In this document: positions 36,703 to 63,098 of the stretch, piece by piece
Numbering within the stretch: position 1 is the first letter of the stretch
Layout of the letters: each line of letters begins with the position of its first letter
NCBI RefSeq assembly: GCF_005670685.2
Contig: NZ_CP062008.1
Span: 2,914,001 to 2,978,000, forward strand
DNA from: Mycolicibacterium mucogenicum DSM 44124
GTDB taxonomy: Bacteria > Actinomycetota > Actinomycetes > Mycobacteriales > Mycobacteriaceae
Length of the DNA stretch: 64,000 nucleotides
Direction of reading: 5' to 3'
The notes under the pieces: generated by a model
What the model was told of the DNA's origin: nothing
Seen by the model: the letters and a program-made list of their open reading frames with translations, nothing else
The model's database searches: none
Position numbers and translations under genes: made by a program

Positions 36703-36855
36703 GGCTACCGGGGCGCTCTCTGCTGGGCGGGACTCACTCGGTCGATTCGACCCCGCGGTGCTTGCAGGATTCACCTGCCAGTTCGGGATCGACACGCAGA
36801 CCGACGGTGGTCTCGCGCGATGCACTACTTGTTAACGAATGCGATTTTCAGCAAA

Positions 36856-38366: not shown

Positions 38367-38633
38367 CCGGAGGCCATCTATTCGTGCGGTTCCACGATAA
38401 ATTGTCGTTTCCGAAACTTTGCTGAATCTGGGGTAGGATATCCCGACAAGTGGCATACCAGGGCTGTAGAGCGAGCGCAGGTTTGCCGGTATGCAGAGAA
38501 ATAGCGTGATAGCGGCCGGTTTCTCCCGGCGGAAACGTCAGTCGGTTCCGACTCGACAAGGTTCGGCGGGTTGTTCACGCTAACCGTGTCTTTGTCGCTA
38601 CGATTGCACGAACACACCGGACTGGAGGCACCT

Positions 38634-40944: not shown

Positions 40945-42009
40945 TCAGTTCTGGTCCCTGCCGGCCGGCGGCACGATGCCCACGGTGTCGAGTATCTGCT
41001 GGGCGGAGACTTCCCACGAGTAGCGGCGCGCGTTGCGAACGCCGCGCTCGCGCAAAGTGTTCGCCAGTTCCACCTCGGACTCCAGCCGATCCAGTTGGGC
41101 GAGCAGGCCGGGCATGTCATCGGGGTCGAAGTAGAGGGCGGCGTCACCCGCGATCTCGGGCAGCGATGCCGCGTTCGACGTGATTACCGGACAACCGAGA
41201 GTCTGGGCTTCCAGCGGCGGCAGGCCGAAACCCTCGTACCGTGACGGGAAGATCAGACCACGCGCGTTGCGGTACAACCATGCGAGCTCGGCATCGGAAA
41301 GACGCCCGGCGACAATGGCTTTCGGGGAAAGTGCTGCCGCTTGACTGAACACCTGGTCGTTACCGGACGCGCCGACCACGACGACGGTGCGTCCGGAATC
41401 AGAGACGGCACGCACCGGTGCCGGCAGGTTCTTGTGGACCGCGAGCGTGCCAACCATGAGATAGAACGGTTCGTCCGGGGCCAAGTCGGGTCGCTGGGGT
41501 TCCACCGTCGTCAAGGCATCTGCGGCACAACCGGCGACCACGAACTTCTGCGCGCGGATGCCGAGCACGTCGTCGAGTTCCCTGGCGCTGAAGTGGGACA
41601 CGGTGATCAGATGGCGTGCCCAGCGCCCGAGGAACGAGTACGAGATGCGGTAGAAGGCCACGAAAGCCCGGCGGAACGTCTGCGGGAACCGGAAGGGCGT
41701 GGCGTCGTGCATGGTGACAACTTGTCGGCGCTTCACCACCGGCGCCGGCCCGGCGAAATTGAGCAGCAGGTTCCCGAACGTTGCGGCGGGTAGGTATATC
41801 TGCTCGAAAACCACGCCGGTGCTGCGCGACTGCCGAATCTCGACCCGCGGGCTGCGCAGCCAGTCGGGGATCTCGGCGTTGGCCGGCACATGGACGACCA
41901 GGTCGGTGACGTCATTGTCGATGACTGCGCGGACGATTTCAGTGGCGTAGCGCTGCGTGCCGGTCAGCTTCTGCGCCAGCCACTTTCCGTTCACGTGCAC
42001 TTTCCGCAT
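40945..42009 (-). CDS. GT4-type glycosyltransferase
   Basis: A 354-residue GT-B enzyme. The C-terminal nucleotide-sugar-binding block [13 protein letters not shown] contains the E-x7-E motif, and [18 protein letters not shown] is the usual linker strand. It likely adds a sugar, perhaps mannose, to the lipid-linked repeat unit. ATG 42009 overlaps the upstream gene's stop (TGATG). It is convergent with the EAL gene, four bases apart. Confidence 0.88.
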
Positions 42010-43100
42010 CAATGATCTCCCCTCAGCGGCTCATACAGGGCGCGAAGTGCAGTCCGCTGTTCGGTCTCGCAATTACCGGCCAATGCCATCGCGGTCTGCT
42101 GCCGCAGCGCCGCCAGCCCTCCGACCCGGCGCAGCGCCGTGATGGCGGTGATCAGATCCTCGGGACGGTCGAGCATTACCGGTAGGTCGACACCGTGCAA
42201 GTACGCACGCCGACGTGCGACCACCGGCAACCCCATGCCCGCGGCCTCCATGATGGAGATCGGAAATCCCTCCCACGACGCCGTGTGCAGGTACAGATCG
42301 CACCCGGCCATCACATCGAGGGCCGCACTACGCGGTAGCCAGCCGGTGACTTCGACTCCGTGCGCGCGGAGAAGGTCGATGTCCTCGTCGGTGCCACCAC
42401 CGATCCACACGGCCTCCAGCCCGCCGTGCACCTCGGCTGCGGCGCGGAACGCCTCGGCGAAGAACCGCGGATCTTTTTGTGGCCCTAGGCGTCCGTTGCC
42501 GACGATCCGCAATGTCGGCTCGCTTGCGGGACGGTCGGCTCGGGGCAACCCGGGGGGTTGTACGTTCGGTACCGTCACCACGCGCGGCGAGCTCAGCGGC
42601 CATCTTGACAGCTCGGCCTCGCGGGGAGAGCACGCCGCGTAGGCGGAAGTGTTGAACGACAACAACCATTCGAGTATGCGAAATCCCTGCCGCACCGCCC
42701 AGGACACGTCCAGCCGTTCGAACGAGTAGCAGTGCGGCGTGTATACCAGCGGGCGCTTGCTCGTCCGGCGCACCGCGGAGCGCACGTACGCGCCGGCCAT
42801 GCTCGAGTGCGCGTGCACGATCACGTGGCCTGGTGTAGCGCGAAGCAACCGGCGAAGGAACCTGACCCGCGCGATGGTGCCGGGGGGCAGCTGCGTCTTC
42901 GTTGCGAAGTACGTCAACTCGTCGATGTCCAGCCGCGCCTCGTCGCGAAACGAGTAGACGAGGTGATGCTGGGCCTCGGGGTAGTTGCGGACAAAGTCCC
43001 CAATCGCTGACGCGGTACCGCTGGCGAATGATTCCGCGACGTGAATGATCGACGGACGTCGGCTGGCCACGATGCCCAACGAGGAGTTGGGGTCTGCCAC
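42009..43100 (-). CDS. GT4-type glycosyltransferase
   Basis: A 363-residue GT-B enzyme starting with IIHVAESFASGTASAIGDFV, a pattern of glycosyltransferases in exopolysaccharide clusters. The binding block is TASWEGFPISIMEAAGMG (E-x7-E), and GNGRLGPQKDPRFFAEAF marks the second domain. GTG 43100 has GGAGG upstream. It is translated together with the next glycosyltransferase gene. Confidence 0.88.
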   Translation of the reverse strand: MADPNSSLGIVASRRPSIIHVAESFASGTASAIGDFVRNYPEAQHHLVYSFRDEARLDIDELTYFATKTQLPPGTIARVRFLRRLLRATPGHVIVHAHSSMAGAYVRSAVRRTSKRPLVYTPHCYSFERLDVSWAVRQGFRILEWLLSFNTSAYAACSPREAELSRWPLSSPRVVTVPNVQPPGLPRADRPASEPTLRIVGNGRLGPQKDPRFFAEAFRAAAEVHGGLEAVWIGGGTDEDIDLLRAHGVEVTGWLPRSAALDVMAGCDLYLHTASWEGFPISIMEAAGMGLPVVARRRAYLHGVDLPVMLDRPEDLITAITALRRVGGLAALRQQTAMALAGNCETEQRTALRALYEPLRGDH

Positions 43101-43379
43101 TTCGTGCCTCCGGACGTGAATTTAGCAAACTTGGATGCCATTGCTCTATATCGCATACCGTAACCGTTCTCCGTGTGACGGTCTAGCCGGATTCGGGACA
43201 TGGCGCGATCGTTTGCGGTGAGAAATCCCATATTGCAGCGGCTATACCGGCCGGTCTCGACAATTCGAAGGCCTGTCGCATGTCCAGCGGAGTTCATTTT
43301 GGTCGGCTTAAATGTTTGATGGTGCACTTCTAGCGAATATCGGACGGCTCCGTGACTGTGTATCGTGGAGCGCGACCAT

Positions 43380-45185
43380 ATGGCACTTGGATCACAGAGG
43401 GGGCTCTGGTTCGTGGACGAGGAAGCTGCCCATACGCAGCCGACATGGTTCGGCCCCGAAACGGCACCCCTGTACGGAGTCGTCCACGTTCCGGCAGGGC
43501 GACGCGCGCGCGGCGGCATCGTGATCTGCCCGCCATTGGGCAAGGAGCACGTCGACACCTACCGAGGACTCAAACTGCTGGCTCAAGAGTTGTGTGAGCG
43601 CGGCTTCATGGTGCTGCGGTTCGACTATCACGCGACGGGCGACTCCGCCGGGGAGCTCGGGGCCGACTCGGCTCTGAGCGACTATCAGGACAGTATCGGC
43701 ACCGCGGTGCGGTATCTGCGAACTGCCGGGGTGACGCGGATCGGCGTGATCGGGCTACGGATGGGTGCCATGCTCGCGGCTACCGTCGCATCCGATCTCG
43801 ACGGGCTTGCCGCGCTTGTCCTGTGGGACCCCGTTCTCGACGGGCGACGATATCTCCGCGAGCAACGGACGCTGTACAAGATGACGGTCGGTGCGGACCT
43901 GGTCGACGTCGACCGTGAGTCCATCCTTGGCACGACCTTCTCGCCCGAGTGCGCACGACAACTCAAAGGCATCCAGATGCCGGAATCGCTCAGCGCAACC
44001 GTCCCGACGCTCATCGTCGCCAGGCCCGAGCGGGCGGACGAGCCGAAGATCAAGGCGCTGCTGGCGAACGGCAACTGCGAGCTGGCGACTGTCGCCGGCC
44101 AGCCTGAGTACGTCGAGCCGGTGACATTCGTGGTGCAGATCCCGGTGGCAACGCTGACGCTCATCGCGGAGTGGCTTCATCAGGCGATGGACACCGGCCG
44201 AGCACCGGTGGCGCCGGCCATCGCGCGCCGCGCACAGGTGGCCCAGCTGCCCGACGGCCGCGCGGTCGTCGAGACGTTGGACGAGTTGGGGCCCAACCGG
44301 TTGTTCGCCATCAGGACCGCCCTGGCGGATACGGCACCGGACACCCCGACATTGCTCATCCACAACACGGCGTGTGAACATCGCGTCGGCTCAGGGCGGG
44401 TGTGGACCGACACCGCACGCGAACTTGCCGCGCACGGCCTCGCTGCGGTGCGCTACGACCGTCGTGGTACTGGTGACACCGGTTGGGCCACAGCAGAATT
44501 CGCAACAATCTATTCGCCGGAATCCAACACCGATGTGCATGACGCGATGGTGGCGACCGGGATCCCTGCCGAACGCCTCATGATGACGGGGATCTGCTCC
44601 GGCGCGTGGAATTCGGCGATCGGGGCCATCAGGTACGGCGCCCGCGCGGTGGTGCTGGTCAACGCCATCCTCTTCAGCATCCGTCACAAGGCCATCGGAC
44701 CCGAGAAGTTGATCGGTATGACGCCGCCGAATCCCGGCGTCGAACCTGCACCCGAGCCCCGCACGCTCGAAGCCCGTCTCAAGAGACTGGTCAGGCGCTG
44801 GCTGCCGTACCGGCTGTGGCTGCTGATGGGCCGGGTCGGCTTGACTGAAGTGCCCGAAGTCCTGCTGACCGCCTTGGGACGTCACGGCATCGTCGTCGAC
44901 ATGGTGATGTCGCCCGAGGACCAGGCGTGGTTCGACAAACAACGTGGGCAGCACGGCATGGCACGGCTCGAGCGTCGTGGCTGGGCACCGACCATCACGC
45001 GTGCACCGACCGGCGATCACCCCCTGCTGCAGCGCGACATCCAGAATGTCGCGAGTGCACGGATTCTGGCTGTCGCGCAGCGCGAGTTTGCCGAACTACT
45101 GCCAGAATCGGTTGATGGCGACGCCCGACGTACCACGTTGCATCGCAACGCAGATCCACCCGCGCCGTGCTGTGAGCGACGGTGA
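43380..45185 (+). CDS. Fused double alpha/beta-hydrolase-like protein
   Basis: A 601-residue protein made of two alpha/beta-hydrolase-type domains (about 15-265 and 275-600). It resembles a fusion of the two hydrolases that accompany exosortase/exopolysaccharide systems. The first has CPPLGKEHVDTYRGLKLLA and an elbow GLRMG, with Arg in place of the nucleophile Ser; the second has GICSG, with Cys at that position. So catalysis may be lost in one or both halves, or use Cys. ATG 43380 is used; GTG 43413 after GAGGGGG is a strong alternative. It overlaps the flippase gene by GTGA. The role is unknown, perhaps a modifying or carrier function. Confidence 0.7.
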   Translation: MALGSQRGLWFVDEEAAHTQPTWFGPETAPLYGVVHVPAGRRARGGIVICPPLGKEHVDTYRGLKLLAQELCERGFMVLRFDYHATGDSAGELGADSALSDYQDSIGTAVRYLRTAGVTRIGVIGLRMGAMLAATVASDLDGLAALVLWDPVLDGRRYLREQRTLYKMTVGADLVDVDRESILGTTFSPECARQLKGIQMPESLSATVPTLIVARPERADEPKIKALLANGNCELATVAGQPEYVEPVTFVVQIPVATLTLIAEWLHQAMDTGRAPVAPAIARRAQVAQLPDGRAVVETLDELGPNRLFAIRTALADTAPDTPTLLIHNTACEHRVGSGRVWTDTARELAAHGLAAVRYDRRGTGDTGWATAEFATIYSPESNTDVHDAMVATGIPAERLMMTGICSGAWNSAIGAIRYGARAVVLVNAILFSIRHKAIGPEKLIGMTPPNPGVEPAPEPRTLEARLKRLVRRWLPYRLWLLMGRVGLTEVPEVLLTALGRHGIVVDMVMSPEDQAWFDKQRGQHGMARLERRGWAPTITRAPTGDHPLLQRDIQNVASARILAVAQREFAELLPESVDGDARRTTLHRNADPPAPCCERR

Positions 45186-46753
45186 CCATCGGAATGAGAA
45201 GTAGGCGGCGTGACGCGGACGAGCGTGTGGAATCTGGCGGTCAGGTGACTGCCACGGGCAACAGCGGTCCTGGCGCGTCCGTAGACGCTGACGCGGACCA
45301 GCGTCGGCGGGACGAACAACATGCGGCCGCCGGGCGAAACACCGTCGCGCTGCTGTTGAGCCGCCTTGCGATCGCCTTGATGGGGTGGTCGGGGACCGTC
45401 CTGATCGCCCGGTTGCTGTCGCCGACGGACTGGGGCGTGTTCTCGTTCGTGTTCGGACTTCTCGGGATGATGTCGATCGTTACCGATCTCGGCGTGGGCC
45501 GGGTGGTGCTCGGCAGGCTGCTGGAAGCAGATGACGAAGACGCCGACGTCTTCGCAAGTTCGTTTGTCGGTCTGCGAGCGGCGTTGGGGCTACTCGGATA
45601 TGGGATCGCCGTCGGCTACGTCGTCGCGATGGGCTACTCGGGCGAGGTCATCCGGGCGACCGCCCTGGCCGGCCTCGTCGTCGTCATCGCCACACCCAGC
45701 CATGCGCTGTCCGTCCTCTACCAGAGCCGGCTGAAGATGGTGACCGTCGCCGCGGCGGAAGCGTTCGCCCAACTGTTCCAATTGATCCTGACCGTCCTCA
45801 TCGCGACGACCCACCCCGGCTTGATGATCTTCATCCTGCCGGCCATCGCAAATGAAATCTTCTCGGGCACATGGAAATTGATCGGCGTCCGCCGCGGCGG
45901 TGTCGGACCGCGGATCACCAAACAGCCGCGCCTCAAGCTGTGGCGCGAGATGCTGGTGGAAGCCATTCCGCTGAGCATCGGGTTGGCCATGATGACGTTG
46001 CTGTCCAAGGTCGACATCCTGATGCTCGGCAAGCTGGATCAGTTCGACTCGGTCGGCCTGTACAGCGTGGCCTACAAGTTCGCCGATGTGCTGTCGTATG
46101 CGGTCCTGGCCATCGTGACGCCGGTGGCAACTCTGTTGGTTGCGGCGTGGCCGCTGATGACCGACGAATTCCGCAGCCGGGTGCGCTCTTCCGCGGTGCT
46201 GATCGGACTGATGACCTGTCTTGCGGTCGCGGGCATGTGGGCCTCGGGCGACGAGATCGTGTCGCTGCTGTACGGCGAGCGGTTCGGCGTCTGCGCAGAC
46301 GCCGTCCGCATGCTGTTGATCGGGGCCGTGTTCGCGGCACTGTCCCACCTGATCCTGGTGGCCCTGGTGTCGGCGACGCGGCAACGGGCCTATCCGTGGG
46401 TGGCATGCGGCGCGTTGGTACTCAACGTCGTTCTGAACGTGTATCTGATTCCGCGGTTTTCGTTCAACGGTTCGGCCGGAGCCACGGTCATCACCGAGAT
46501 CGTCATGTTCGTCGCGATGTGGGCGCTCGCGGCCCGGACCATTCCGATCGACCGGCTGATGCCCGTGTCCAAGTTGCTCCTGATCGTCGCGCTGACGGTC
46601 GGCGTATGCGCGGTCACCGAAGTCATGCAGGGCTATGTGCCGTGGGTGGTCGTGGCCGCATGCTCGGTCGTGCTTTTCGTCGGTGGCGCGTTCGCGCTGC
46701 GACTGCTCGACCGCCAGCTGTTGGCGCGACTGCGGCCGGCGCGAGCGGCATGA
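45182..46753 (+). CDS. Polysaccharide flippase (Wzx/MATE-like)
   Basis: A 523-residue protein with about 14 TM helices and the MVF/Wzx-like start LLSRLAIALMGWSGTVLIARLLSP. It should flip lipid-linked repeat units across the membrane. A 45-residue charged N-terminal tail precedes the first TM. GTG 45182 overlaps the hydrolase stop, and its own stop overlaps the next start (ATGA), so three genes are coupled. Confidence 0.88.
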   Translation: MTIGMRSRRRDADERVESGGQVTATGNSGPGASVDADADQRRRDEQHAAAGRNTVALLLSRLAIALMGWSGTVLIARLLSPTDWGVFSFVFGLLGMMSIVTDLGVGRVVLGRLLEADDEDADVFASSFVGLRAALGLLGYGIAVGYVVAMGYSGEVIRATALAGLVVVIATPSHALSVLYQSRLKMVTVAAAEAFAQLFQLILTVLIATTHPGLMIFILPAIANEIFSGTWKLIGVRRGGVGPRITKQPRLKLWREMLVEAIPLSIGLAMMTLLSKVDILMLGKLDQFDSVGLYSVAYKFADVLSYAVLAIVTPVATLLVAAWPLMTDEFRSRVRSSAVLIGLMTCLAVAGMWASGDEIVSLLYGERFGVCADAVRMLLIGAVFAALSHLILVALVSATRQRAYPWVACGALVLNVVLNVYLIPRFSFNGSAGATVITEIVMFVAMWALAARTIPIDRLMPVSKLLLIVALTVGVCAVTEVMQGYVPWVVVAACSVVLFVGGAFALRLLDRQLLARLRPARAA

Positions 46754-49861: not shown

Positions 49862-50210
49862 TTGCCCGACCTCTCGACGCTTTATCGGGCCGCGGAGCTA
49901 CGCGGCCGTCATTTGTCGCAACGATGATGACGAGCATTGGGCGCAATGTGTGGCATTTCGGAAATTCATCCCAGATGTCGACGGGAAGCAAAAAACATTC
50001 AAACTTCGCCACAATTTGAGTTTATTGACGCAGAATGCATCATATCTGCAGCATATTGATGTTCAATACCTTTTGAATCATTTTGCCACAACGTCAGTTT
50101 TGTGTTCAATTTCGACGCGCGGCAGAGTAACAGATGTTACCGTCGCCCCGCCTGTAGCGCATTGCAAATGACGTTTGCTGCACATGGCTCCGGCGACCAG
50201 GCGGCAGGTT
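49862..50210. other. AT-rich intergenic region
   Basis: 349 bp without a gene. The central part (about 49990-50130) is clearly AT-richer than its surroundings. It is upstream of the beta-helix gene at 47840 and likely holds its promoter. Confidence 0.5.
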
Positions 50211-51353: not shown

Positions 51354-52739
51354 CTACTGCTGATTCAGTGGCGTGGGCTGCTTCGGCCAGATCGTCGCGC
51401 GCCGGCGAGCCCTGCGTTCGGTGATGAGCACTCCGATGATCACCGCGGCGAGACCGACCCAGGCGTAGGTGACGCGACCCTGGACCCAGTACATGTACCG
51501 CGGCCACTCGACGAGCCCGGTGAAGAACATCGGATACACCAGGAGGCCGCCCAGGCTTCCCCGGCAGAAGTGGCGATACAGCAGTCCGGCGACCACGCCG
51601 AGACCGAAGAAGAACACGAGGCCGCCGATCTGGCCGTAATCGACGAATGGAGCTTCGTACCCGCTGGGGTTGTTGAACTCAGGGTTTGCGTACTGCTCGA
51701 GCACCCGGTAGTAGGGCGAATCCGGATCAAATGTCTTGGGGTAGGGCCGATCATGACCACCGAGGCGCTCGTAGAGCCGCAGTTGATAGATGCCTTGCAC
51801 CGACCAGAATGACTCGAGCGTGTCGTAGGGGATCCGGCCCGGCCAGCTCATGTGATCGACGATGACCGCGCCGTTGTTGATGGCTGTCGCGTAATAGCCC
51901 GCCAGTCGATTCAGCACAAACGTGGGGAACGAATCTTCTCCGTGCATCCGGTAGAACATCCACGACCGGAAGTACTCGAAGAACGCGAACGTGACGATCA
52001 CCAGAGCGATACCGGCGACGGGGATGGCACGAGCGATGGTGCGCCGCTTCCGGTCGCGGGTGGACAGCCAGCCCGCGCCGACGACCACCACGGGGACGAC
52101 GAGCTCGAGGATGGCGAGGCGCTCCGAGTAGATGTACGAGCGCGGTACCGACAGCAGGAGTACGACGAGCAGCTTGATGAGCTCCGCGCGGGTGTACTTG
52201 TGCGCCAGCAGGATTGCGGAAACGACGACTGCGGCGATGCCGATCTGGGTGAGGGCGGTTACCCCGGGAATGTTGCCGATGGCCGTTTTTGCCGGAGCAT
52301 CCCACGGGTGGTCGGAGCCGCCGAACAGCTCGGCGGGCCCGAGTCCACTCTTGACGATCAGAACCGCGAACCCGACGTATCCGACGATGGTGAGGGTCGT
52401 CAGTACCGTGCTCGCGCGTTCGAGGGCGGCGCGGCGCCGCTCGGACAGCGCCGGCCATACCGCGGCCAGATTGTCTCGGGCGGGCATGGCTGCGATGGCG
52501 ATCATCGCGCCGAAAGCGAAGGCGAGCACGCCGCACTCGAACAGCCATAGCATGCTGTCCGTCACGACTTTTGGTTCCTGCCAATACGTTCGGAACTGCT
52601 GATCGTCGACCGATGCGGTGAGCAGGATCGCGCTCGAGCCGACGGCAAGAGACACCACAGCCGGCGACAGCCATCCCAGCCGGAGTTCGCCACCTGTGGT
52701 CGACCCGGTTGCGGCGCGGGGTTTCGTTGCCATCAGCAT
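51354..52739 (-). CDS. Wzy-like polymerase/O-antigen ligase-type membrane protein
   Basis: A 461-residue membrane protein with ten to twelve TM helices and a large loop between the last ones (about 290-375). The layout and locus context fit a polysaccharide polymerase. A positively charged C-terminal tail ends in PLNQQ. ATG 52739 or 52733. Confidence 0.65.
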   Translation of the reverse strand: MLMATKPRAATGSTTGGELRLGWLSPAVVSLAVGSSAILLTASVDDQQFRTYWQEPKVVTDSMLWLFECGVLAFAFGAMIAIAAMPARDNLAAVWPALSERRRAALERASTVLTTLTIVGYVGFAVLIVKSGLGPAELFGGSDHPWDAPAKTAIGNIPGVTALTQIGIAAVVVSAILLAHKYTRAELIKLLVVLLLSVPRSYIYSERLAILELVVPVVVVGAGWLSTRDRKRRTIARAIPVAGIALVIVTFAFFEYFRSWMFYRMHGEDSFPTFVLNRLAGYYATAINNGAVIVDHMSWPGRIPYDTLESFWSVQGIYQLRLYERLGGHDRPYPKTFDPDSPYYRVLEQYANPEFNNPSGYEAPFVDYGQIGGLVFFFGLGVVAGLLYRHFCRGSLGGLLVYPMFFTGLVEWPRYMYWVQGRVTYAWVGLAAVIIGVLITERRARRRATIWPKQPTPLNQQ

Positions 52740-52778: not shown

Positions 52779-53960
52779 TCACGCGCGCGTCGCCACGACA
52801 GAGACGGGAATGTCGCGGTGCGCTACGGAACGGGCGGCGACATCGACGTCGTGAGCGGTGTCGAACCCGATCCGAACGGCGACGACGATCTGGTCGGCCG
52901 TGTCGGCTGCCTCGACCGCGACGGGTGAACTCCAGGTGCCCGCGTCGAGGATTGTCGTCTCGGCGCGGCGGGTGCTGTCGCCATCGGCGAGATCCTCACT
53001 GACGGCCTCGCCGTGCTCGGCTGCGGCGAAGGCGATGTGCCTCGCCACTGTCGCGGAGCCCGAATCAGCGGACGCCCCGACCACGAGGATGGTGCCGGTG
53101 CATGGGCGGGGGAGTTGCGCATAGATCGTTCGCGCTGCCGGCTCGTCGACCTGCCGGCGCGCGAGCCGAAGTACCGGCCTGAGCGCGAGCTGGTCCTCGC
53201 CGTCCAACTGGGTGACCGACGTGACGATGCCCGTACGCGTGCGCCACACCATGGCCCCGGCCATTGCCACGATGCCACCGAGGAGCCCGCCCCCGATGGG
53301 TCCCAACGCCGGCGAGCTGAGCAGTCCGGTCGCTTCGGCGATGCGGGTCGGCTCTACTGTCTGCACACCCGGCGTGCGAAGCAGTTCGACCTGAAGTGAC
53401 GTGCGCCGGAAATACAGCTGGACGAGCTCGTCGGTCGGGCGAGTCGCTGCCGGTTCACTGATCCGCTGCGCCTCCTCGAGTTTGGGGATGACAGCGTTGA
53501 CGGCGTCGAGGCTGGACTGGTACCGCTGCTGGTTCTGATCGAACACGTGACCGGTGAAGACGGTGACGGCGGCATCGACCGTCCGCCGAGCTTCGTCCGA
53601 ATTGGCGGCGGTGGCCGAGAGCGTGACGAGGTTCGACTTGCCCGCCTGCGATGCAGAGAGCGTGGGCTTCTTGCTTTCCCCGAGTTTCTTGGCGACGGAG
53701 TCGAGATAGCTGGGAGATGACAGGTACGCCAACTCACCCGACATGTAGTCGGGCATCGTGTTCAGCAGCGGCTGCGTGCCGAGCATGATCTGGTTCGCCT
53801 CGATCGGCTCGTCGACCCGAATCGTGGTGCTGGCGGTCACATCTTTGCTCGGGGCCAAGGCGAGTGCACCGATCAGTGCGCCGAGCACGATGCCCACCAG
53901 TGTGATCGGCCACAGCGGCGTAACCCACTTCGAAATCGCAGACCTACGTCGCTGTCCCAC
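52779..53960 (-). CDS. Wzz/CapA-type chain-length regulator with degenerate kinase domain
   Basis: A 393-residue protein. It has two TM segments (about 15-35 and 210-235) flanking an extracytoplasmic Wzz domain (STTIRVDEPIEANQIM...). After TM2 comes a cytoplasmic domain resembling a BY-kinase, but its P-loop (GASADSGSATVA) lacks the Walker A lysine, so it probably cannot phosphorylate. It likely controls polymer length. GTG 53960 follows GGAGGGAG by five bases and is better than the TTG at 53975. Confidence 0.78.
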   Translation of the reverse strand: MGQRRRSAISKWVTPLWPITLVGIVLGALIGALALAPSKDVTASTTIRVDEPIEANQIMLGTQPLLNTMPDYMSGELAYLSSPSYLDSVAKKLGESKKPTLSASQAGKSNLVTLSATAANSDEARRTVDAAVTVFTGHVFDQNQQRYQSSLDAVNAVIPKLEEAQRISEPAATRPTDELVQLYFRRTSLQVELLRTPGVQTVEPTRIAEATGLLSSPALGPIGGGLLGGIVAMAGAMVWRTRTGIVTSVTQLDGEDQLALRPVLRLARRQVDEPAARTIYAQLPRPCTGTILVVGASADSGSATVARHIAFAAAEHGEAVSEDLADGDSTRRAETTILDAGTWSSPVAVEAADTADQIVVAVRIGFDTAHDVDVAARSVAHRDIPVSVVATRA

Positions 53961-54224
53961 GTCGGCTCCCTCCAAACCTGTTCGTGTGGCCTAGACAGTA
54001 ATGAAGGCTGGGCCAGATGGCAAATTTACAGAGATGTTAGCAATCATCGCTGAGGCGCGAGTGATGCCTTGGTCTAGCTGGTCGGCGAGATGATCCAATG
54101 ATCGCCATAAATAGCCTTCGACATGGCATTTAACGTCAATTGCCCTGACTGAATTGATGGCCGACGACTCCATCGCATGGCGTTGCTAGAAGCTCTATAT
54201 TGCGACTACAGCAACATCGCCGAA

Positions 54225-54647
54225 TCAAGGAAGGTCAAGTGATGTGGTCGCGCAGACCGCCACCACCACGGCGGCGGCGTGGCATTCGGCGTGGGTCAGC
54301 GACAGCGAGATCTGCCGCCATTGCTGCTCGTCCGCCAGCTCTGCGGCTGAGCCACTCAGCCGGAGGGTGACGAGCGGTTTCGCCGTCACCACCTCGATCT
54401 CGCGGGGCACGAAGGCGGCGTCTGGGCGTGAAAATGCCTTGATAGCGGCCTCTTTCGCGGCGAATCGGGCCGCGAGTCGAGAAAGCCGGCTCGGTCCGGC
54501 ACATGCGGCCAGCTCGTCGTCGGTATAGATCTTGGCGAGGAACCGCGCGCCGAACGTCGACACGGAGTGTTCGATCTCGTCGAGACTCACCACATCGCAA
54601 CCGACCCGGACGTGGTGACCCGGAACCTGTACCTCAGGAACGATCAC
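54225..54647 (-). CDS. Holo-ACP synthase-like phosphopantetheinyl transferase
   Basis: A 140-residue protein with AcpS motifs: VGCDVVSLDEIE near the N-terminus (Asp18), FAAKEAAIKAF (residues 62-72, the catalytic Lys-Glu pair) and SLTHAECHAAAVVVA at the end. It would attach 4'-phosphopantetheine from CoA to the Ser of a carrier protein; the obvious target is the small carrier protein at 58007. GTG start overlaps the stop of the GH2 gene (GTGA), so it is the last gene of a four-gene operon. Confidence 0.85.
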   Translation of the reverse strand: MIVPEVQVPGHHVRVGCDVVSLDEIEHSVSTFGARFLAKIYTDDELAACAGPSRLSRLAARFAAKEAAIKAFSRPDAAFVPREIEVVTAKPLVTLRLSGSAAELADEQQWRQISLSLTHAECHAAAVVVAVCATTSLDLP

Positions 54648-57016
54648 GCCGATCTCCGTATCGGAATCGGCGCGCGCAGATCGATCGACCCGACTGTTCC
54701 GGTCGGCGACTCACCGCCGCTCTGCCGGGTCAACGTGATCTGACGCGGTAGTCGTGCGGCCACGTGGAAATAGTTGTCGCTGACCAGCCAACCAGAGATC
54801 TCGATCTCGATGTAGCGCAACGCGACCTCGGACACCAACTCGAGCACCCATATGCCTTCCGACACCGGGGATGCCGTCGCGGTCAGCAGTGAAGCTGCTT
54901 GCCTGCCTGCAGGATTCACGACCAGCACGTCGTACACGGTCGGTCTGCCGTCGAAGGTGACCCGGGCCTGGACCGCATCCGCTGTCGGCGGGCCGAATTG
55001 ATAGGCCTGTGACAGATCTCGGAATTGTCCTGACAGCTCGGTATCGACGAATGCGGTCGACGAGGCCGGGGGCACCGTGATCGGTCGAGTGACGTCCACC
55101 GCAACGCCCACGGAATTCGTTGCCGTCAAGGTCAATTCACCACGCAGTTCCGCGTCGGTGTCGTTGTACACGTCGATTCTGACGCCGGCGAGGCCTTCGT
55201 CCGAGAGCAAGACCGCTACCGGAGCCCAGGTCCTGGCCAGCACAGCCAGTGCCGGTTTCGCCCCGCCGTCGGAGTCCAGAAGTCCCCACCCGGCGCCGGG
55301 CACTGTGTCCCGGCCGGACAGCACAAGGGCCCCGCCACAGCCTGAGTCGGCTCGCCGCCAGTAGGCGAAGCATTCGCGCATCGCGGTGGCCACGGCAAGG
55401 CGACCGAGCTGCAGATAGCGTTCAGGATCCGTGCGCCGTACGGCGAGCAGACCCTCACCGAACACCTCGTGCGCGTAGAAGTCGCGGACGTCCTCGAAGT
55501 CCCACGAGGAGCCGCGGTCCCGCGGCACGCCGGCCTTCCAGTCGGGGTGATGGCCGGCCACTGCGGCGGAACCGAAATGGCGTTCGATGTAGTCGGACAC
55601 CGGGGGATTGGCGAACGCCAGGCTCTCGGCAGCGAACCGGATTCCGGCGCTCCGCACGTCGGCGATCGGTCGTAGGTAGCCACCGACCCCGTACCAGTGC
55701 GCTATGCCGGTGTCCGGGCGGATCGCGAGATCGGCGGTACCGGGTGGGGCCGACGGTGAGGCCCGGACGTAGTGGGCATCAGAGTGTTCCGCGACAGCGG
55801 CACCAAGTACTGATTCCAGGACCTCCATCACCGACTCGTCGTGGCTGAGTCCGAGCATCTCGGGCTGTTGCAGCGTCTCGCTGCCACCGCTGACCACCGC
55901 CAGCGCTGGGTTTCCAGACACTCCTTGCAGGACAGAGATGAGTTCTCTTGCGATCAACTCGTTCTGCTCGACCGGGGGGTCGAACGTCGCCAGCATGGCG
56001 TCCTGCCACACCAGCAGGCCCGCCTCGGCGCAGGCCTCCCAGAACTCGGCCTGCTCGAAGAGCAAGCCACCCACCACTCGCACCATCGTGGCACCGGCGG
56101 CCGCGAAAGTCCTTACCTGATCGCGAATCTGATCGGGATCGGCGAATGCCCGGATGGGGTCCGGAGGAGACCACGTCACGCCCCGGCAGAAGATCGCAGT
56201 GCCGTTCACGCTGATCCGAAATCCGTCCGCTGCGACCGACAGTGTCCGAAATCCGACGGGCCGATCGGCGACTTCCACGCCATCGGCCTCAAGGCGTACC
56301 CGGTACACGTGTTGCGGGCCATAGCCGTTGGGCCACCAGAGCAGCGGAGACGGAACGGCGACGTTGAACCGGAAGCCACGTTGGGTCGGTGCGGTGGTGT
56401 CGTCGGCTATCTGTCGGCCGGCCGGATCCACCACGGTGAGCCGGATCGTGCGCGCACCGCTGGTTCCCGCAACTGTGATGACGTTTCCGTCGACCTTGGT
56501 GACGACATCGGTCCGGGTCTGCGCGGTGACAGCAGTCACCGGACGCCAGATGCCAACGGGTGCCGGAAGATTCCCATACACAGGGGCGCGGCCGATTAGC
56601 GTCGTTCGAGCCCACCGCAGGCCCGGCGCACCGACCAGCGTGGAGCGCCAACGTCCTCTTGGCCTTCGCGTCTTGAGCCAATGATTCAGCGACGCGAAGC
56701 GAATCACCAGCTCGTGATCACCGGCATCGCATTCGATGCGCAACGGCAGAAACATCGATTCACAGTCGGCCACCGGCGACCCATCGAGAAAGACCGTGGC
56801 GGGGAAGGTCAGTCCTTCGAATTCGATACTGGCCGCGTGTTCCGTGGTCAACGTGGTCCGGTACCACCAGTCGTGGTCGTCGGGGTTGCCGACGAACGCG
56901 GTCGCCACCGTCGCCGGGATGTCCAGGGTCGGTGCGGCAGCCCAATTGTCAGTCAGCTCCCCGGGTCCCGCAACGGAGCCGGGGTCCCGGCGCAACATCT
57001 GCCAACGTGCCGGCAT
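54644..57016 (-). CDS. GH2-like glycoside hydrolase (beta-mannosidase-type)
   Basis: A 790-residue protein with the beta-sandwich, Ig-like and TIM-barrel order of GH2 beta-mannosidase-like enzymes. The N-terminal WWYRTTL and sugar-binding domain, FRISVNGTAIFCRGVTWSP and the barrel start are visible. The acid/base region is VSGGSET, with Ser where GH2 usually has Asn before the Glu, and the nucleophile region is RFAAESLAF, with Glu retained but SEFG not kept. So it may be active with altered specificity or have another role. It lacks a signal peptide, hence cytoplasmic. ATG 57016 is five bases after the previous gene. Its neighbours are carrier-protein genes. Confidence 0.75.
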   Translation of the reverse strand: MPARWQMLRRDPGSVAGPGELTDNWAAAPTLDIPATVATAFVGNPDDHDWWYRTTLTTEHAASIEFEGLTFPATVFLDGSPVADCESMFLPLRIECDAGDHELVIRFASLNHWLKTRRPRGRWRSTLVGAPGLRWARTTLIGRAPVYGNLPAPVGIWRPVTAVTAQTRTDVVTKVDGNVITVAGTSGARTIRLTVVDPAGRQIADDTTAPTQRGFRFNVAVPSPLLWWPNGYGPQHVYRVRLEADGVEVADRPVGFRTLSVAADGFRISVNGTAIFCRGVTWSPPDPIRAFADPDQIRDQVRTFAAAGATMVRVVGGLLFEQAEFWEACAEAGLLVWQDAMLATFDPPVEQNELIARELISVLQGVSGNPALAVVSGGSETLQQPEMLGLSHDESVMEVLESVLGAAVAEHSDAHYVRASPSAPPGTADLAIRPDTGIAHWYGVGGYLRPIADVRSAGIRFAAESLAFANPPVSDYIERHFGSAAVAGHHPDWKAGVPRDRGSSWDFEDVRDFYAHEVFGEGLLAVRRTDPERYLQLGRLAVATAMRECFAYWRRADSGCGGALVLSGRDTVPGAGWGLLDSDGGAKPALAVLARTWAPVAVLLSDEGLAGVRIDVYNDTDAELRGELTLTATNSVGVAVDVTRPITVPPASSTAFVDTELSGQFRDLSQAYQFGPPTADAVQARVTFDGRPTVYDVLVVNPAGRQAASLLTATASPVSEGIWVLELVSEVALRYIEIEISGWLVSDNYFHVAARLPRQITLTRQSGGESPTGTVGSIDLRAPIPIRRSA

Positions 57017-57020
57017 CGCC

Positions 57021-58001
57021 TCAGCCCACCGCGTCGGCGATGACGTCGAGCGCGTCCTGCCAATCGGTGGCCATGGCGGAAAGCGCGGCGGACACATCGA
57101 CTTTCCGCCCGCTCACCGCGCGCGCCATCTTGAACTGCACTGCCTTCGCCGCCGCCGCGACGTTACGCAGTAACACTGCTGCGGCGGCCGCACCCGAGAA
57201 CTCGGCATCGAGGTGTTCGGCCAGATCGGCCAGCAGTTCAGCCGACGCCCCGCACTGACGCAGCGAACCGAAGGCCCACAAGTGGAAGCGGGCCATCCCC
57301 GCCTCAGGCAGCCAGGTCCCGGCCTCCTCGACGCAGGTTGCCAGACGATCGATCGGATTTCCGCTCGGGCGACGTGAAAGATGCTCGCGCACAATGATTG
57401 CTAGGGCACCAGGCTGTGCACGGGCCGGAAAGAGACGGACGACTTCGATGTACGGCGGGAGCAGCGGTGCCGACGCGGCAGTCAGCCCGAACACGCCGTC
57501 GAAGTCTTCGCCGTCGAGCGCGAACAACCCCGCGTTGTGCAGGTAGCGCATCTGCCTTGCATTCCGGTCGACGTTCAGCGGCGTGATCGTGGTCTTGACA
57601 TGCTCATTGCGATAGGCGGTTCCCGCGGTGTCGGGCAGCCACCAGCTGTCGACTTCCACGGTGTGCAGCACGCCGCGCCGCGGCCCCGTCTCCACCAATT
57701 CGAGCACCGGGAGCCACGAATTCTCTTCGGTTACCTCGATGCCGTACAGCCGACGCAGGTCGTCGGGTTGCTGCTTGCCGAAGGTCCAGCTGAGCCCGTC
57801 ATGGTCAACCGAAAGCAGTGACGCGAAGCTCGGAACAGGGTCCAGCCCAAGACAATTCAGAATCTCGATCCACAGGTCGAGGTAGCAGTTCGTCTCGACC
57901 CAGAGCCGGTCGGCGTGGTGCGTGAAATGCGGTTCGTAACCGTCGGGCCTGGCGTCGATCTGCAGGGCAGCGGCAGCTTGCGGCACCATGGCGCGACTCA
58001 T
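57021..58001 (-). CDS. DUF1839-like protein
   Basis: A 326-residue soluble protein. Conserved-looking parts are THHADRLWVETNCYLDLWIEIL (residues 27-48), VEVDSWWLPDTAGTAYR and FHLWAFGSLRQCGASAELL. I recall this as the DUF1839 family, which occurs beside amino acid:[carrier protein] ligases in rhizobia; its reaction is unknown. It lies five bases after the carrier protein gene and before the GH2 gene. The locus suggests it acts on the aminoacyl group or its acceptor. Confidence 0.72.
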   Translation of the reverse strand: MSRAMVPQAAAALQIDARPDGYEPHFTHHADRLWVETNCYLDLWIEILNCLGLDPVPSFASLLSVDHDGLSWTFGKQQPDDLRRLYGIEVTEENSWLPVLELVETGPRRGVLHTVEVDSWWLPDTAGTAYRNEHVKTTITPLNVDRNARQMRYLHNAGLFALDGEDFDGVFGLTAASAPLLPPYIEVVRLFPARAQPGALAIIVREHLSRRPSGNPIDRLATCVEEAGTWLPEAGMARFHLWAFGSLRQCGASAELLADLAEHLDAEFSGAAAAAVLLRNVAAAAKAVQFKMARAVSGRKVDVSAALSAMATDWQDALDVIADAVG

Positions 58002-58006
58002 GAGCC

Positions 58007-58243
58007 CTACTTGGCGAGATTCGAGACGACCGCCTGGATGTTCCGTATCGAGGCAAAGGTGGACTTCTTGAGGGCTTCATCGGGAAATTCGATGTCGAAC
58101 TCGTCTTCGAGCGCCAGCATCACATTCACCGAAGCGTGGGAGGTCAGGCCCAATTCATAGAGGTCGGCGTCGTCGGCCACCCCGATCGGGTCGACGGCCA
58201 TCCGGCCGTGCGCAGCCAAAACGCGTTCGATGGTTTCCCGCAT
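58007..58243 (-). CDS. Acyl/aminoacyl carrier protein
   Basis: A 78-residue carrier protein with the four-helix pattern and the modification motif LGLTSHASV; Ser35 would carry 4'-phosphopantetheine. The acidic helix ALEDEFDIEFPDEAL is typical. It heads a minus-strand operon with the DUF1839-like, GH2 and phosphopantetheinyl transferase genes. The ATG at 58243 lies about seven bases from a TATGAT element, so the mRNA may be leaderless. It is probably the partner of the amino acid:[carrier protein] ligase encoded at 59513. Confidence 0.85.
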   Translation of the reverse strand: MRETIERVLAAHGRMAVDPIGVADDADLYELGLTSHASVNVMLALEDEFDIEFPDEALKKSTFASIRNIQAVVSNLAK

Positions 58244-58349
58244 ACCCGTATCATACAGAGTATTCGCCGCTGATAGTTCGCTGTATTCATCACAGCTAAC
58301 TACAATTCTGCGAGGAACCGAAGGTCGGTTCATCGCCCGAGGGGGTCTC
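58244..58349. promoter_or_regulatory. Divergent promoter region of the aminoacyl-carrier module
   Basis: This 106-bp AT-richer gap separates the divergent carrier protein and acyl-CoA dehydrogenase-like genes. A TATGAT element (minus strand, 58255-58250) sits close to the carrier protein ATG. TACAAT at 58301-58306 could be the plus-strand -10. Confidence 0.4.
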
Positions 58350-59516
58350 ATGCCCGATCTTGACGGTGCGGTCACGCGCACCGCGTCGACCATTCCCGGG
58401 CTCGTCGACGCCGTGCGCGTCGCCGCTGGCGCCGCAGACGAGGTTGACCAGCAGGCGCGGTTCCCGCACGAAGCCGTCGATGCACTCAAACAGGCACAAT
58501 TACTTTCGTGCGGCCTTCCAGCCGAACTCGGTGGTCAGGGGTTCCGCATCGCCGAACTGTCGGTGATCGCCCGGGCGCTGGGTACCGCATGCAGCGCCGC
58601 GGGCATGGTCTTCGCCATGCACCAGACACAGGCCCTGGTCCTTGCGAAGTACGCGCGCAGCGGCCCCGCCGCGGAAGTGGCAAGAAGCATCTCAGCAAAT
58701 CAGTCGCTCATTGCGTCAGCAACAACTGAGAGCACAACTGGTGGTGATCTCGGCTCGTCGACGTGTGCGATCGTCAGCGAAGGCGACGAAGTTCTCTTGG
58801 AAAAGAACGCGCCGGTGATCTCGTACGCCGAGCAGGCCGACTACATCGGCGCCACGGCCAGGCGTCACCCGGATGCGGCCAAGAACGATCAAGTCCTGCT
58901 GTTGTGTCCGGCCGGCGACACCGATCTCAAGCGCACCAGCACCTGGGACACCATGGGCTTTCGTGGCACGTGCAGTCCCGGCTATCTGTTGTCGACGCGG
59001 ACTTCGGCCGCCAACCTGATTCCGGCCGACTACGCGAGCATCCTGGCGACCACGATGCTGCCCGCGTCACACACCCTGTGGGCGTCGGTGTGGTTGGGAA
59101 TCGCCGACGCGGCATACGCCAAAGCCCGCACGGTCGTTCGACAAGCCGCGCGCAAGGCGCCGGACAAGACCGTCCCGCAAGCGTCGGTGCTGGCTGATCT
59201 GACCGTGACGCACCAGCGCTTCGAATCGATGGTGCTACACGAGGTTCTGCGCTATCAGTCCTTGGCCGAGTCCGGTGCCGATGAAGCGACCATCAGCTTC
59301 ACCGTCGCCATGAACAATCTCAAGATCGCCGCATCGACGGCGGTGATCGATGTGGTGACCGAGGCGTTGAAGATCGTCGGCCTCAATGGTTACCGCGAGG
59401 ACCACGCGCTGACCATGGGACGTCTCCTACGGGACGCATTCGGTCCACAGCTGATGGTCTCGAACGAACGTATTCGAGTAAACAACGCCAATCTCGTGTT
59501 GGCCTACCGGGGGTGA
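58350..59516 (+). CDS. Acyl-CoA dehydrogenase-like flavoprotein
   Basis: A 388-residue protein with the acyl-CoA dehydrogenase layout. It has an N-terminal helical domain (LLSCGLPAELGGQGFRIAEL), a beta domain with STTGGDLGSS and TWDTMGFRGTCSPGY, and the C-terminal four-helix bundle. The canonical catalytic Glu region (YEGT) is replaced by MVSNERI, so the base differs. In pyrrole-forming pathways related flavoproteins oxidise prolyl groups on carrier proteins; here the substrate could be the aminoacyl-carrier protein. ATG 58350 follows GAGGGGG. Its stop overlaps the ligase start. Confidence 0.82.
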   Translation: MPDLDGAVTRTASTIPGLVDAVRVAAGAADEVDQQARFPHEAVDALKQAQLLSCGLPAELGGQGFRIAELSVIARALGTACSAAGMVFAMHQTQALVLAKYARSGPAAEVARSISANQSLIASATTESTTGGDLGSSTCAIVSEGDEVLLEKNAPVISYAEQADYIGATARRHPDAAKNDQVLLLCPAGDTDLKRTSTWDTMGFRGTCSPGYLLSTRTSAANLIPADYASILATTMLPASHTLWASVWLGIADAAYAKARTVVRQAARKAPDKTVPQASVLADLTVTHQRFESMVLHEVLRYQSLAESGADEATISFTVAMNNLKIAASTAVIDVVTEALKIVGLNGYREDHALTMGRLLRDAFGPQLMVSNERIRVNNANLVLAYRG

Positions 59517-60460
59517 GAGCATTGACGACAGCTGGCGAGCCGCTCGAATTGGCGCGCAAAGAATTTCGCGATGAGCTGGTCGATGTCGGCCACTTGGTGC
59601 CGTTGGGCATCGACGGACTCTATGGCCGCGGCGGTGATTTCGAGAAGATCATCGACGGCATCGATGTCGCGGTGCGCCGAAAGGGCGCCGAGGTGCACGG
59701 CAACGCGCCTGCGGTCCTGCGCTTTCCGCCCTTGTACCCACGCGAAGCGTTCGAGAAGACCGACTACATCGCGTCTTTCCCGAATCTGACAGGCGCCATC
59801 TCGACATTCACCGGAGGCAACCCCGAGCATCGCGCGCTGCTGGCGGATCGTGACGCCGGACTGTCGTGGGATGGTCACCTGAACCCTGCTGGGACCATGC
59901 TGGTTTCGGCCGCGTGCCATCCCAGCTACGGCACGCTTCCGAAGGTCCTTCCCGAAGGCGGGGCACTGATGGACATCTACGGCTATTGCTTCCGGCATGA
60001 GCCTGCGATCGACCCAGCGCGTATGCAAGCCTTCCGGATGCACGAGTATGTGCGCGTCGGCTCACCCGAACAAGCGGAGGGACATCGCGACTCGTGGGTG
60101 GACCACGGCATGGAGGTACTCACCGCCCTCGGCCTGGACGCCCGGCCCGCGCCCGCCAATGATCCGTTCTTCGGCAGAGCAGGCCGAATGCTGGCGGCGA
60201 ACCAGCGGGACGAGAATCTCAAGACGGAGCTGTTGGTGCGGCTCTACGGCGATCTCGATGACGGTACCGCCGTGGTGTCGGCGAACTGCCATCGGAATCA
60301 TTTTGGTGAGACGTTTGGGCTGTCGACCGCCGACGGGGCCGTCGCACACAGCGCCTGCGTCGGATTCGGCATGGAACGAATCGCCCTTGCCCTGCTCAAA
60401 ACCCATGGTCTACGGCCCGATTCGTGGCCGATCGCCGTACGCGAAGTGCTCGGGTGGTAG
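59513..60460 (+). CDS. Amino acid:[carrier protein] ligase (class II tRNA-synthetase homologue)
   Basis: A 315-residue protein matching the atypical seryl-tRNA-synthetase-like ligases that load glycine or alanine onto carrier proteins, as known from Bradyrhizobium and Agrobacterium. Class II motif 2 is FRHE (Arg161, Glu163) and motif 3 is GFGMER (284-289). Likely zinc ligands are Cys135 (SAACHP), Glu178 (MHEYV) and Cys282 (HSACVG), at spacings matching the known enzymes. It has no tRNA-binding arm. It would form aminoacyl-AMP and transfer the amino acid to the phosphopantetheine of the carrier at 58007. GTG start overlaps the dehydrogenase stop by four bases. Confidence 0.9.
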   Translation: MRALTTAGEPLELARKEFRDELVDVGHLVPLGIDGLYGRGGDFEKIIDGIDVAVRRKGAEVHGNAPAVLRFPPLYPREAFEKTDYIASFPNLTGAISTFTGGNPEHRALLADRDAGLSWDGHLNPAGTMLVSAACHPSYGTLPKVLPEGGALMDIYGYCFRHEPAIDPARMQAFRMHEYVRVGSPEQAEGHRDSWVDHGMEVLTALGLDARPAPANDPFFGRAGRMLAANQRDENLKTELLVRLYGDLDDGTAVVSANCHRNHFGETFGLSTADGAVAHSACVGFGMERIALALLKTHGLRPDSWPIAVREVLGW

Positions 60461-61371: not shown

Positions 61372-62945
61372 TCAGTAGGCGCCGCTGCCGGTGAGGACGG
61401 TACGGACGGTTTTGGTGATGATGAGGATGTCTTGGAGTAGGGACCAGTTTTCGACGTAGGAAAGGTCCAGGCGCACAGCGTCTTCCACCGCGAGGTCGGA
61501 GCGTCCGCTGATTTGCCAGAGGCCGGTGAGGCCGGGTTTGACGGCCAGGCGGCGGCTGACGAGGTCGTCGTAGGTGTCGACTTCTCGGCGGACTTGTGGG
61601 CGGGGTCCGACGACGCTCATGTGTCCGGTGAGGACGTTGAAGAACTGGGGAGTTCGTCGATGGAGTACTTGCGGATGATCTTGCCGATGGGGGTGACGCG
61701 TGGGTCGTCCTTCATCTTGAAGAACATCGCGCCACCTCCGCTGGCGGCGATCATGTCGGCTTGGCGGGTGTCGGCGTCGCGGTACATGCTGCGAAACTTG
61801 GTCATGCGGAACGGTTTTCCGTCCAGGCCGATGCGCTCCGCCTTGTAGAAGATCGGGCCAGCGCTGGTGAGCTTGACGGCCAGGGCGGTGACGAGCATGA
61901 GCGGGGCAACCGCCAGTAGCGCCGCACCGGCGAAGGCGATGTCGAAAGTGCGCTTGATCAGCGAATTTGCGCGGCTGTATTGGGGTTTGGTGATCTCGAA
62001 GACCGCCATGCCTGCGACGGGGCGGCTGGTGAGGCGTTGGTCGGCGATGTCGATGAGGCCGGGTGCAACCATGAGGTCGATACCGTGGGTCTCCAGTTCC
62101 CACATGAGTCGGCGGATCTCGGTGGGGCTGAGATGGTGGGTGGCAGCCAGGGCGACAGTGTCGGCGTTGGTGCGCTGAACGGCGGCGAGGATGGCTTCGT
62201 CGGTGCCGACGATCGGGATGTCGCGGCCGGCGATGGTGATGACTTCTTTGGCGTGCGTCGGTCCCATGGGGGTGCAGAATCCGGCGACGTGGTACCCGGC
62301 CCAGGGGTCTTTGGCGAACTCGGTGGCGATGTCTGCGGCAGCGCTGGTGGCACCGACAGCCAGGAGGCGGCTTTGGTTGTAGCCCAGGCGGCGCTTGTTC
62401 GCGTGGAATTTGCGCCAGATCCAGCGGGTGGTGATCAGGCCGACCAGGCCTGTGGGCAGAGCGATCGCGAGGTAGCCGCGCGAGATGTTCAGGTGGAACA
62501 GCGTCGAGGCGATGGCGATGAGGCCGAACAGCTGCAACGTGGCCGCGGCGAGGGTGACGTATTCATCGAAACCTCGGCCGACGACCTTCGCCGACCGGCT
62601 GCCCAGTGATAGGAAGCCCATCCACGCCAGCGCGATGACGGCCGACACCGCCAGATACCGGACGTGCGGACCGTTGTCGAGGGACACGTAGACGGGGTGG
62701 CCGCTGGTGGTGGCGAACCGGAAAATTTGCCCAAGGATGACGGAAGAGCAAATAACTAAAGCATCGCTGAAAATGAGCTTGCGTGCATATTTTGCGTGAC
62801 GCTGCTCACGCATTGACCTGCCCCGGTTGCTGATTGTGGTAGCAGCTGGTAGCTGCAGCGCAAGCTCGTTTGCAGCGGAGAATTGGCCGGTGGTGGACTC
62901 GTTTGAACTGTTTACCTGCGGGTTTTCAACTGTAGATGTCGACAT
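61372..62945 (-). pseudogene. Polyprenyl-phosphate sugar transferase (copy B, frameshifted)
   Basis: Near-identical paralogue of the gene at 35128. The frame from ATG 62945 reads through the TM and central domains and into the transferase domain, then shifts at a G-run (61646-61649, four G against five in copy A) and ends at 61617 with an unrelated tail. The rest of the domain (FFNVLTGHMSVVGPRPQ ... KPGLTGLWQISGRSD) continues in the next frame to 61372. The total length is 1574 nt against 1575 in copy A, so one base is missing. As read, it lacks the end of the catalytic domain. A sequencing error in the G-run is possible. Confidence 0.85.
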
Positions 62946-63098
62946 GGCTACCGGGGCGCTCTCTGCTGGGCGGGACTCACTCGGTTGGTTCGACCCCAGG
63001 CTGCTTGCAGGGTTCACCTGCCGATTTGGGATCAGCGCGGTGACCGGCGGTGGTCTCGCGCGAGGGGCTACTTGTTAACGAACGCGATTTTTAGCAAA

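Follow-up and report, generated by a model that had tools for sequence, protein, structure and literature searches.

Carrier-bound amino acids and surface polymers

While amino acid:[carrier protein] ligases resembling class II aminoacyl-tRNA synthetases are represented in Bradyrhizobium and Agrobacterium (NF005479; PDB 4h2w, 3mey), the purpose of these tRNA-synthetase-derived enzymes has been open since 2010 and their role was still called unknown in a passage of a 2022 review (PMC9437257). According to the note in proof of a 2010 paper (PMC2922099), the neighbours of the ligase are a carrier, a redox enzyme described as 'Rossmann fold', a glycosidase, genes for liposaccharides and a conserved but uncharacterised protein (Atu2574 in Agrobacterium). 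Its authors proposed that the last of these acts as a ligase coupling an amino acid to an amino group on a sugar of the cell surface, and that the redox enzyme alters the aminoacyl group. In a search of the literature judged by titles, none was found testing the end product of these carrier-protein ligases.

A ligase and a carrier of the same two families are encoded in Mycolicibacterium mucogenicum DSM 44124 (6.10 Mb, single contig), within the window considered here, i.e. the whole analysed stretch of 64,000 nucleotides (NZ_CP062008.1, positions 2,914,001 to 2,978,000). A first-pass annotation of the window had grouped them in one module with four further genes, for a phosphopantetheinyl transferase (PPTase), a GH2 glycosidase, a DUF1839 protein and an acyl-CoA-dehydrogenase-like flavoprotein, and had suggested that an activated amino acid reaches a surface polysaccharide, an interpretation that is partly supported as a whole. 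Its central idea gains from the fusions, gene neighbourhoods and protein fold presented below; it is not new, having been in print since 2010 (PMC2922099). What is new here is a constant cysteine hydrolase, the fusions of this hydrolase to flippases and glycosyltransferases, a separable gene cassette and the CcbD-like fold of DUF1839.

A recurring core of ligase, carrier and alpha/beta hydrolase

The ligase passes the NCBI curated cut-off for amino acid--[acyl-carrier-protein] ligase (NF005479) and has PDB 4h2w as its best structure match (2.4e-67). Cys135, Glu178 and Cys282, singled out in the first-pass annotation, are indeed present and occupy the same alignment columns as a Cys, a Glu and a Cys in the 4h2w chain; we take them to be zinc ligands. 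From 141 pattern matches in genome contigs, 82 relatives were obtained and 80 loci kept, mostly from Mycobacteriaceae, Williamsia, Gordonia and Rhodococcus. The recurring core in this sample is ligase, carrier and a tandem alpha/beta hydrolase (ABH), the last being a seventh gene that had been missed in the window. ABH lies within the fetched stretch in 46 of the 80 ligase loci, and for 26 of the 34 loci without a nearby copy the genome was searched and ABH found every time (26/26), i.e. in 72 of the 72 ligase-bearing genomes or loci checked; by coordinates, and if contigs correspond, it is 11-20 kb from the ligase in many of these genomes.

Within the genus, the ligase exceeds the cut-off in 12 of 248 genomes, with weak matches in four more, and ABH is present in all 12 and in 4 of the other 236 (Fisher 2e-17, a value uncorrected for relatedness and based on five scored candidates per genome). 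DUF1839 occurs in 7 of the 248, all among the 12 with a ligase, and in 3 of the 396 genomes of a phylum sample; the set is sporadic within the genus. As for the four genomes with ABH and no ligase, three carry the carrier and PPTase beside ABH and the fourth contig is only 3.9 kb long. These three (L105-L107) also harbour a stand-alone adenylation enzyme near ABH, with a DltA-like score in L105 (14605-16143) and relatives in L106 and L107. As L012 has one near its ligase, this enzyme could simply be encoded nearby and have no part in loading.

ABH is a single polypeptide, the N- and C-terminal halves of which are related to exosortase-A hydrolases 2 and 1, respectively, below the curated cut-offs of TIGR03100 (76.7 vs. 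168.45 bits) and TIGR03101 (97.2 vs. 202.75 bits). The N-half is without a nucleophile (R132 at this place) and the C-half keeps C411, D519 and H552, that is a Cys-Asp-His set. A literature search returned no paper with the exact phrases for the exosortase-A-associated hydrolases.

A removable cassette around DUF1839

All six genes of the first-pass annotation were matched by tblastn in the same fetched stretch in 38 of the 80 loci, which bears out their co-occurrence outside this genome and led to the rejection of an obligate six-gene module. Taken singly, the carrier was matched in 78 loci, the flavoprotein in 71, DUF1839 in 51, GH2 in 49 and the PPTase in 44. The dedicated PPTase that had been emphasised is present in this locus and was dropped as a core member, being near the ligase in only these 44 loci. 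By gene clusters, the flavoprotein is counted in 70 loci, DUF1839 in 48 and GH2 in 47, the differences from tblastn arising from remnants and missed gene calls; on this count DUF1839 and GH2 occur together in 45 loci, are jointly missing from 30 and are split in 5.

Flavoprotein, DUF1839 and GH2 are all unmatched in 9 of the 80 fetched stretches (only DUF1839 was sought genome-wide), and for eight of these nine (G639, G660-G666) the entire genome lacks DUF1839, the ninth, L088, not having been searched; the ligases of L083 and L084 are nearly identical and may represent one strain or a contaminant. DUF1839 is likewise absent from five ligase-bearing genus genomes, two of which match L017 and L018 at 100%. 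Conversely, it was found elsewhere in the genome in all seven checked loci with a flavoprotein and no nearby copy. L012 keeps carrier and ligase together with remnants, namely a 44-residue DUF1839 piece containing a stop and a 36-residue flavoprotein piece. In a ligase tree (n = 52; L027 and L079, where no ligase was called, omitted), the cassette-free form is nested within the full form, with five changes, at least three of them forced by well-supported branches; L012 (remnants only), L088 (no cassette gene in the stretch) and L096 (flavoprotein only) were labelled as full. When the homologues were compared in two groups, five of 340-399 residues fell in neither. On plasmids, the ligase is found in 86 records and DUF1839 in 59, with the order carrier-flavoprotein-ligase-DUF1839-GH2 in seven of the eight annotated plasmid stretches containing DUF1839; the eighth, a Rhizobium plasmid (L098), has a lone DUF1839 at 8947-9933 among conjugation genes. 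Given the cassette-free genomes, the remnants in L012 and the joint presence of these genes, flavoprotein, DUF1839 and GH2 behave as an accessory, removable cassette added to the core.

In the aligned homologues of DUF1839 (a Burkholderia frame, L100, over the 500-residue limit was left out), C39 and H155 are kept in 59 of 59, T137 in 58 (one Ser) and T138 in 58 (one Ala). This fits the C-(T/S)-H catalytic set described in PMC10318531, either threonine being a candidate for the catalytic one; the same source, as far as its account of this family goes, classed DUF1839 in 2023 as papain-like with a guessed cell-wall role in processing glycans. The nearest folds to the predicted DUF1839 structure are CcbD, AziU3 and CtaG, at 11-17% identity, and the model thus resembles carrier-dependent condensing enzymes of the CcbD type in fold. 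From this resemblance, and from the note in proof of PMC2922099, it could be argued that DUF1839 is the sole aminoacyl transferase, as proposed in 2010, with ABH as a thioesterase clearing misloaded carrier or as a glycan esterase; the N-half of ABH is indeed nearest by fold to lipases and esterases, in a search spanning mainly residues 20-278. Such a division of labour appears quite unlikely, as eight genomes with ligase and ABH (two of which may be one strain, and with the carrier seen in seven) have no DUF1839 anywhere, so that something else must unload the carrier there. The separability of the cassette from the core argues in the same direction, and a proofreading esterase would leave the flippase fusions of ABH unexplained.

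Regarding the other two cassette proteins, GH2 has a beta-mannosidase as best PDB match (4.3e-22) and keeps the acid/base E380 and the nucleophile E464 in 58 of 58 homologues, while the NE motif is not kept, SE being found here (Ser in 51/58, Asn in 7/58), as also occurs in subfamily GH2_14 according to a passage of PMC12243196; no signal peptide was seen by eye. The flavoprotein is without Glu at either usual catalytic position; in all 82 rows, one is occupied by V/I and the other by S/A/T. These positions are presumed from those of MCAD and IVD placed on the alignments, and the first of them is likewise devoid of Glu in the solved dehydrogenase 7p98. Judged by these residues, the flavoprotein does not appear to follow the classical acyl-CoA dehydrogenase mechanism, and an oxidation of the amino acid on the carrier, as the first-pass annotation had ventured, is a possibility at most.

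Relation to glycan export

In Williamsia (L024, L049) and Rhizobium (L094), ABH and a Wzx flippase form one fused protein, and in Dietzia (L084) the fusion partner is a GT4 glycosyltransferase. The Rhizobium ABH-flippase protein has 177 homologues, and among the 120 that were listed, 49 include a flippase part. Glycan genes, i.e. at least one of seven annotated clusters, are near 54 of the 80 loci, a count in which only 20 recurring clusters and the window genes were annotated, so that it may be too low, and in which near relatives are counted repeatedly. The setting within polysaccharide genes noted in the window is frequent rather than universal, and the literal claim that the module is invariably located in such a setting was discarded, as 26 of the 80 stretches show none of the seven clusters. 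Cassette-free modules adjoin glycosyltransferases and an O-antigen-ligase domain, and the same glycosyltransferase clusters are also found beside the full modules L021 and L027-L032. A stretch of about 30 kb in Shinella brings together the module, GumC, an O-antigen ligase, glycosyltransferases, a flippase and ABH, with ABH about 22 kb from the ligase, inside an exopolysaccharide cluster. ABH is followed there by a second carrier, a ligase_PEP_1-like protein (566.8 of 592.35 bits) and a dCO2ase_PEP1-like protein (413.1 of 478.45 bits), in other words, exosortase-type and synthetase-type sets are side by side.

Organisation of the locus

The six open reading frames (ORFs) of the first-pass annotation were confirmed at their positions and strands in two divergent coupled operons, and their family names were upheld against NF005479, NF005480, TIGR00556 and Pfam (Table 1). 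Overlaps of 4 nt join PPTase to GH2 and flavoprotein to ligase. Two starts were corrected: that of the carrier is now the ATG at 58243 and that of the flavoprotein is probably 58350, its homologues being about 388 residues long, which gives the divergent gap its 106 nt.

Table 1. Genes of the module and of its surroundings, in window coordinates.
Feature	Positions	Strand	Basis or remark
GT4 glycosyltransferase	40945..42012	-	family match
GT4 glycosyltransferase	42009..43100	-	family match
Tandem alpha/beta hydrolase (ABH), candidate aminoacyl transferase	43365..45185	+	seventh gene, outside the first-pass list
Wzx-type flippase	45182..46753	+	overlaps ABH by 4 nt
Hydrophobic protein, possible Wzy polymerase	51354..52739	-	no Pfam match; function inferred by eye
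Possible Wzz-like chain-length protein	52779..53975	-	no Pfam match; function inferred by eye
AcpS-type PPTase	54225..54647	-	TIGR00556 66 bits, cut-off 45.35; PF01648
GH2 glycosidase, beta-mannosidase-like	54644..57016	-	PF22666, PF00703
DUF1839 papain-like protein	57021..58001	-	PF08893 331.1 bits vs. gathering score 22.5
Carrier protein, PRK07081 type	58007..58243	-	NF005480 96.9 bits, cut-off 72
Divergent gap between the two operons, 106 nt	58244..58349	.	from revised starts
Acyl-CoA-dehydrogenase-like flavoprotein	58350..59516	+	PF02771, PF00441
Amino acid--[acyl-carrier-protein] ligase, class II aminoacyl-tRNA synthetase-like	59513..60460	+	NF005479 423.3 bits, cut-off 357
Polyprenyl glycosylphosphotransferase, split over two frames	61372..63017	-	ORFs and Bac_transf match

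The halves of the split glycosylphosphotransferase are the ORFs 61617-63017 and 61372-62103, the Bac_transf match ending half-way, and its relatives are called as single ORFs of about 520-555 residues; a second polyprenyl glycosylphosphotransferase gene is located at 35128-36825. A GGDEF protein and a GGDEF-EAL protein (37110-40940) adjoin the polysaccharide genes, which suggests control by cyclic di-GMP, and two right-handed beta-helix proteins are encoded within the cluster (47840-51326).

Elsewhere, EF-P, EpmA and a lysine-2,3-aminomutase-like gene directly precede the module of Rhizobium sp. NLR16a (L094, 8502-11328), and the five-gene operon of a Rhizobium gallicum conjugative plasmid (L102, 8542-14395) is situated between nif genes and ACC deaminase. 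A Priestia megaterium plasmid (L096, 11139-19686) combines PPTase, carrier, flavoprotein and ligase with a DMT transporter, an ATP-grasp protein, an alanine permease and an alanine racemase, with a D-Ala-D-Ala ligase upstream, perhaps an alanine-analogue pathway. This permease and racemase, and the alanine dehydrogenase near 21 Rhodococcus-group loci, are hints of alanine as a substrate that were not used as evidence.

A proposed route and what weighs on it

In the model considered probable here, with moderate confidence, a carrier-protein route would decorate a surface polysaccharide of the Wzx/Wzy type with an amino acid. A PPTase would arm the carrier, and the ligase would adenylate a small amino acid, which homologues suggest to be Gly, Ala or Ser, and load it as a thioester, a reaction shown for homologues and carried over to this ligase by analogy. 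ABH would then accept the aminoacyl group on Cys411 and, at the cytoplasmic face beside the flippase, pass it on to the repeat unit linked to its lipid, a step proposed because of the conserved Cys-Asp-His, the co-occurrence with the ligase and the fusions to flippases and glycosyltransferases. Where the cassette is present, the flavoprotein may modify the carrier-bound aminoacyl group, DUF1839 may form an amide between this group and an amino sugar, in the manner of CcbD, and a C2-substituted sugar may be remodelled by GH2, though perhaps not in this order. Wzx would finally flip the decorated unit and Wzy polymerise it.

Several points weigh against this route. Judged from sequence alone, ABH fits a hydrolase as well as a transferase, and two cysteine acyl-transfer candidates in one pathway are one more than needed. 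The Shinella ABH may serve the second carrier, AMP-forming ligase and decarboxylase set instead, the glycosylphosphotransferase beside the module is split in this very genome, and ABH is on the same plasmid record as the ligase in 9 of 12 cases only, the exceptions being L096, L097 and L102, for which the chromosomes were not searched. Besides the 26 stretches mentioned above, no obvious glycan genes surround the five-gene operon in Caballeronia (L097) or R. gallicum (L102). These two operons, as well as the Priestia plasmid set with its transporter, ATP-grasp protein, permease and racemase, would suit a module making a small diffusible metabolite, i.e. an amino-acid or amino-sugar conjugate, for which the polysaccharide neighbourhood is secondary. 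Of the nearest folds to DUF1839, AziU3 and CtaG belong to natural-product pathways, and so does CcbD (PMC12945683, in the part on this enzyme). Yet the fusions of ABH, itself constant, to flippases and to a glycosyltransferase, the glycan clusters near most loci and the location of the Shinella ABH make a diffusible product unlikely.

A carrier feeding a peptide assembly line, that is non-ribosomal peptide synthesis, was the first suggestion for these ligases, in a 2010 PNAS paper as cited in passages of PMC9437257 and PMC2922099. It may find an echo in Gordonia (L033), where a large adenylation-containing protein of 2774 residues, possibly a non-ribosomal peptide synthetase, is two genes from the ligase, which also counts against the polysaccharide route, and in an A-T-thioesterase protein near the ABH-only locus L106. 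No such synthetase was present among the 20 window proteins scanned, nor in the annotated plasmid stretches, and an assembly line is thus very improbable.

If the polysaccharide route is true, a function would also be suggested for the exosortase-A-associated hydrolases. More tentatively, and with the balance slightly on the side of doubt, hydrolases like ABH from mycobacteria, rhizobia and exosortase-A polysaccharide loci could form a general class of cysteine acyltransferases that pass carrier-bound amino acids or amines, at the flippase, to glycans on their lipid. Their loaders would be interchangeable, either class II synthetase-like or AMP-forming, and bacteria would thereby have another means than Dlt of aminoacylating their surface polymers. 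In any case, a partner fused to a flippase in loci from two phyla makes the question of what the ligases are for directly testable.

Comparison with known systems

The neighbourhood described in the 2010 note in proof (PMC2922099) is alike in its uncharacterised protein, here taken as DUF1839, its glycosidase, its redox enzyme and its proposed end. It differs in that the redox enzyme was given as Rossmann-fold, whereas it is acyl-CoA-dehydrogenase-like here, and the note itself, taken without its additional file, names no alpha/beta hydrolase. Furthermore, DUF1839 is dispensable for the core in the present loci, and ABH with its flippase and glycosyltransferase fusions is described here.

CcbD, considered here together with LmbD, CtaG and AziU3, condenses an amino acid bound to a carrier with an amino sugar. 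Its Cys-His-Glu triad (PMC12945683) is distinct from the C-(T/S)-H set of DUF1839 (PMC10318531); by sequence comparison, the Cys is kept in DUF1839 and the other two places differ. BtrH of butirosin biosynthesis, a papain-fold enzyme that acylates an aminoglycoside with a carrier-bound group (PMC10318531, in its remarks on this enzyme), belongs to a different family and is not among the structure matches listed for DUF1839, which excludes nothing.

The exosortase-A set comprises hydrolases 1 and 2, an AMP ligase and a pyridoxal-phosphate-dependent decarboxylase (TIGR03098-03101), and the two halves of ABH are related to its hydrolases 2 and 1. Here, however, ABH scores below the curated cut-offs, both hydrolases are joined in a single chain and the loading enzyme belongs to the class II synthetase type.

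While the module is not claimed as a member of the Dlt system, D-alanylation of teichoic acids is alike in outline, as an amino acid is activated, held on a small carrier and put on a surface polymer. Dlt relies on an AMP-forming ligase and on the membrane acyltransferase DltB with DltD, whereas a class II loader and a soluble cysteine hydrolase would take these parts in the locus presented here.

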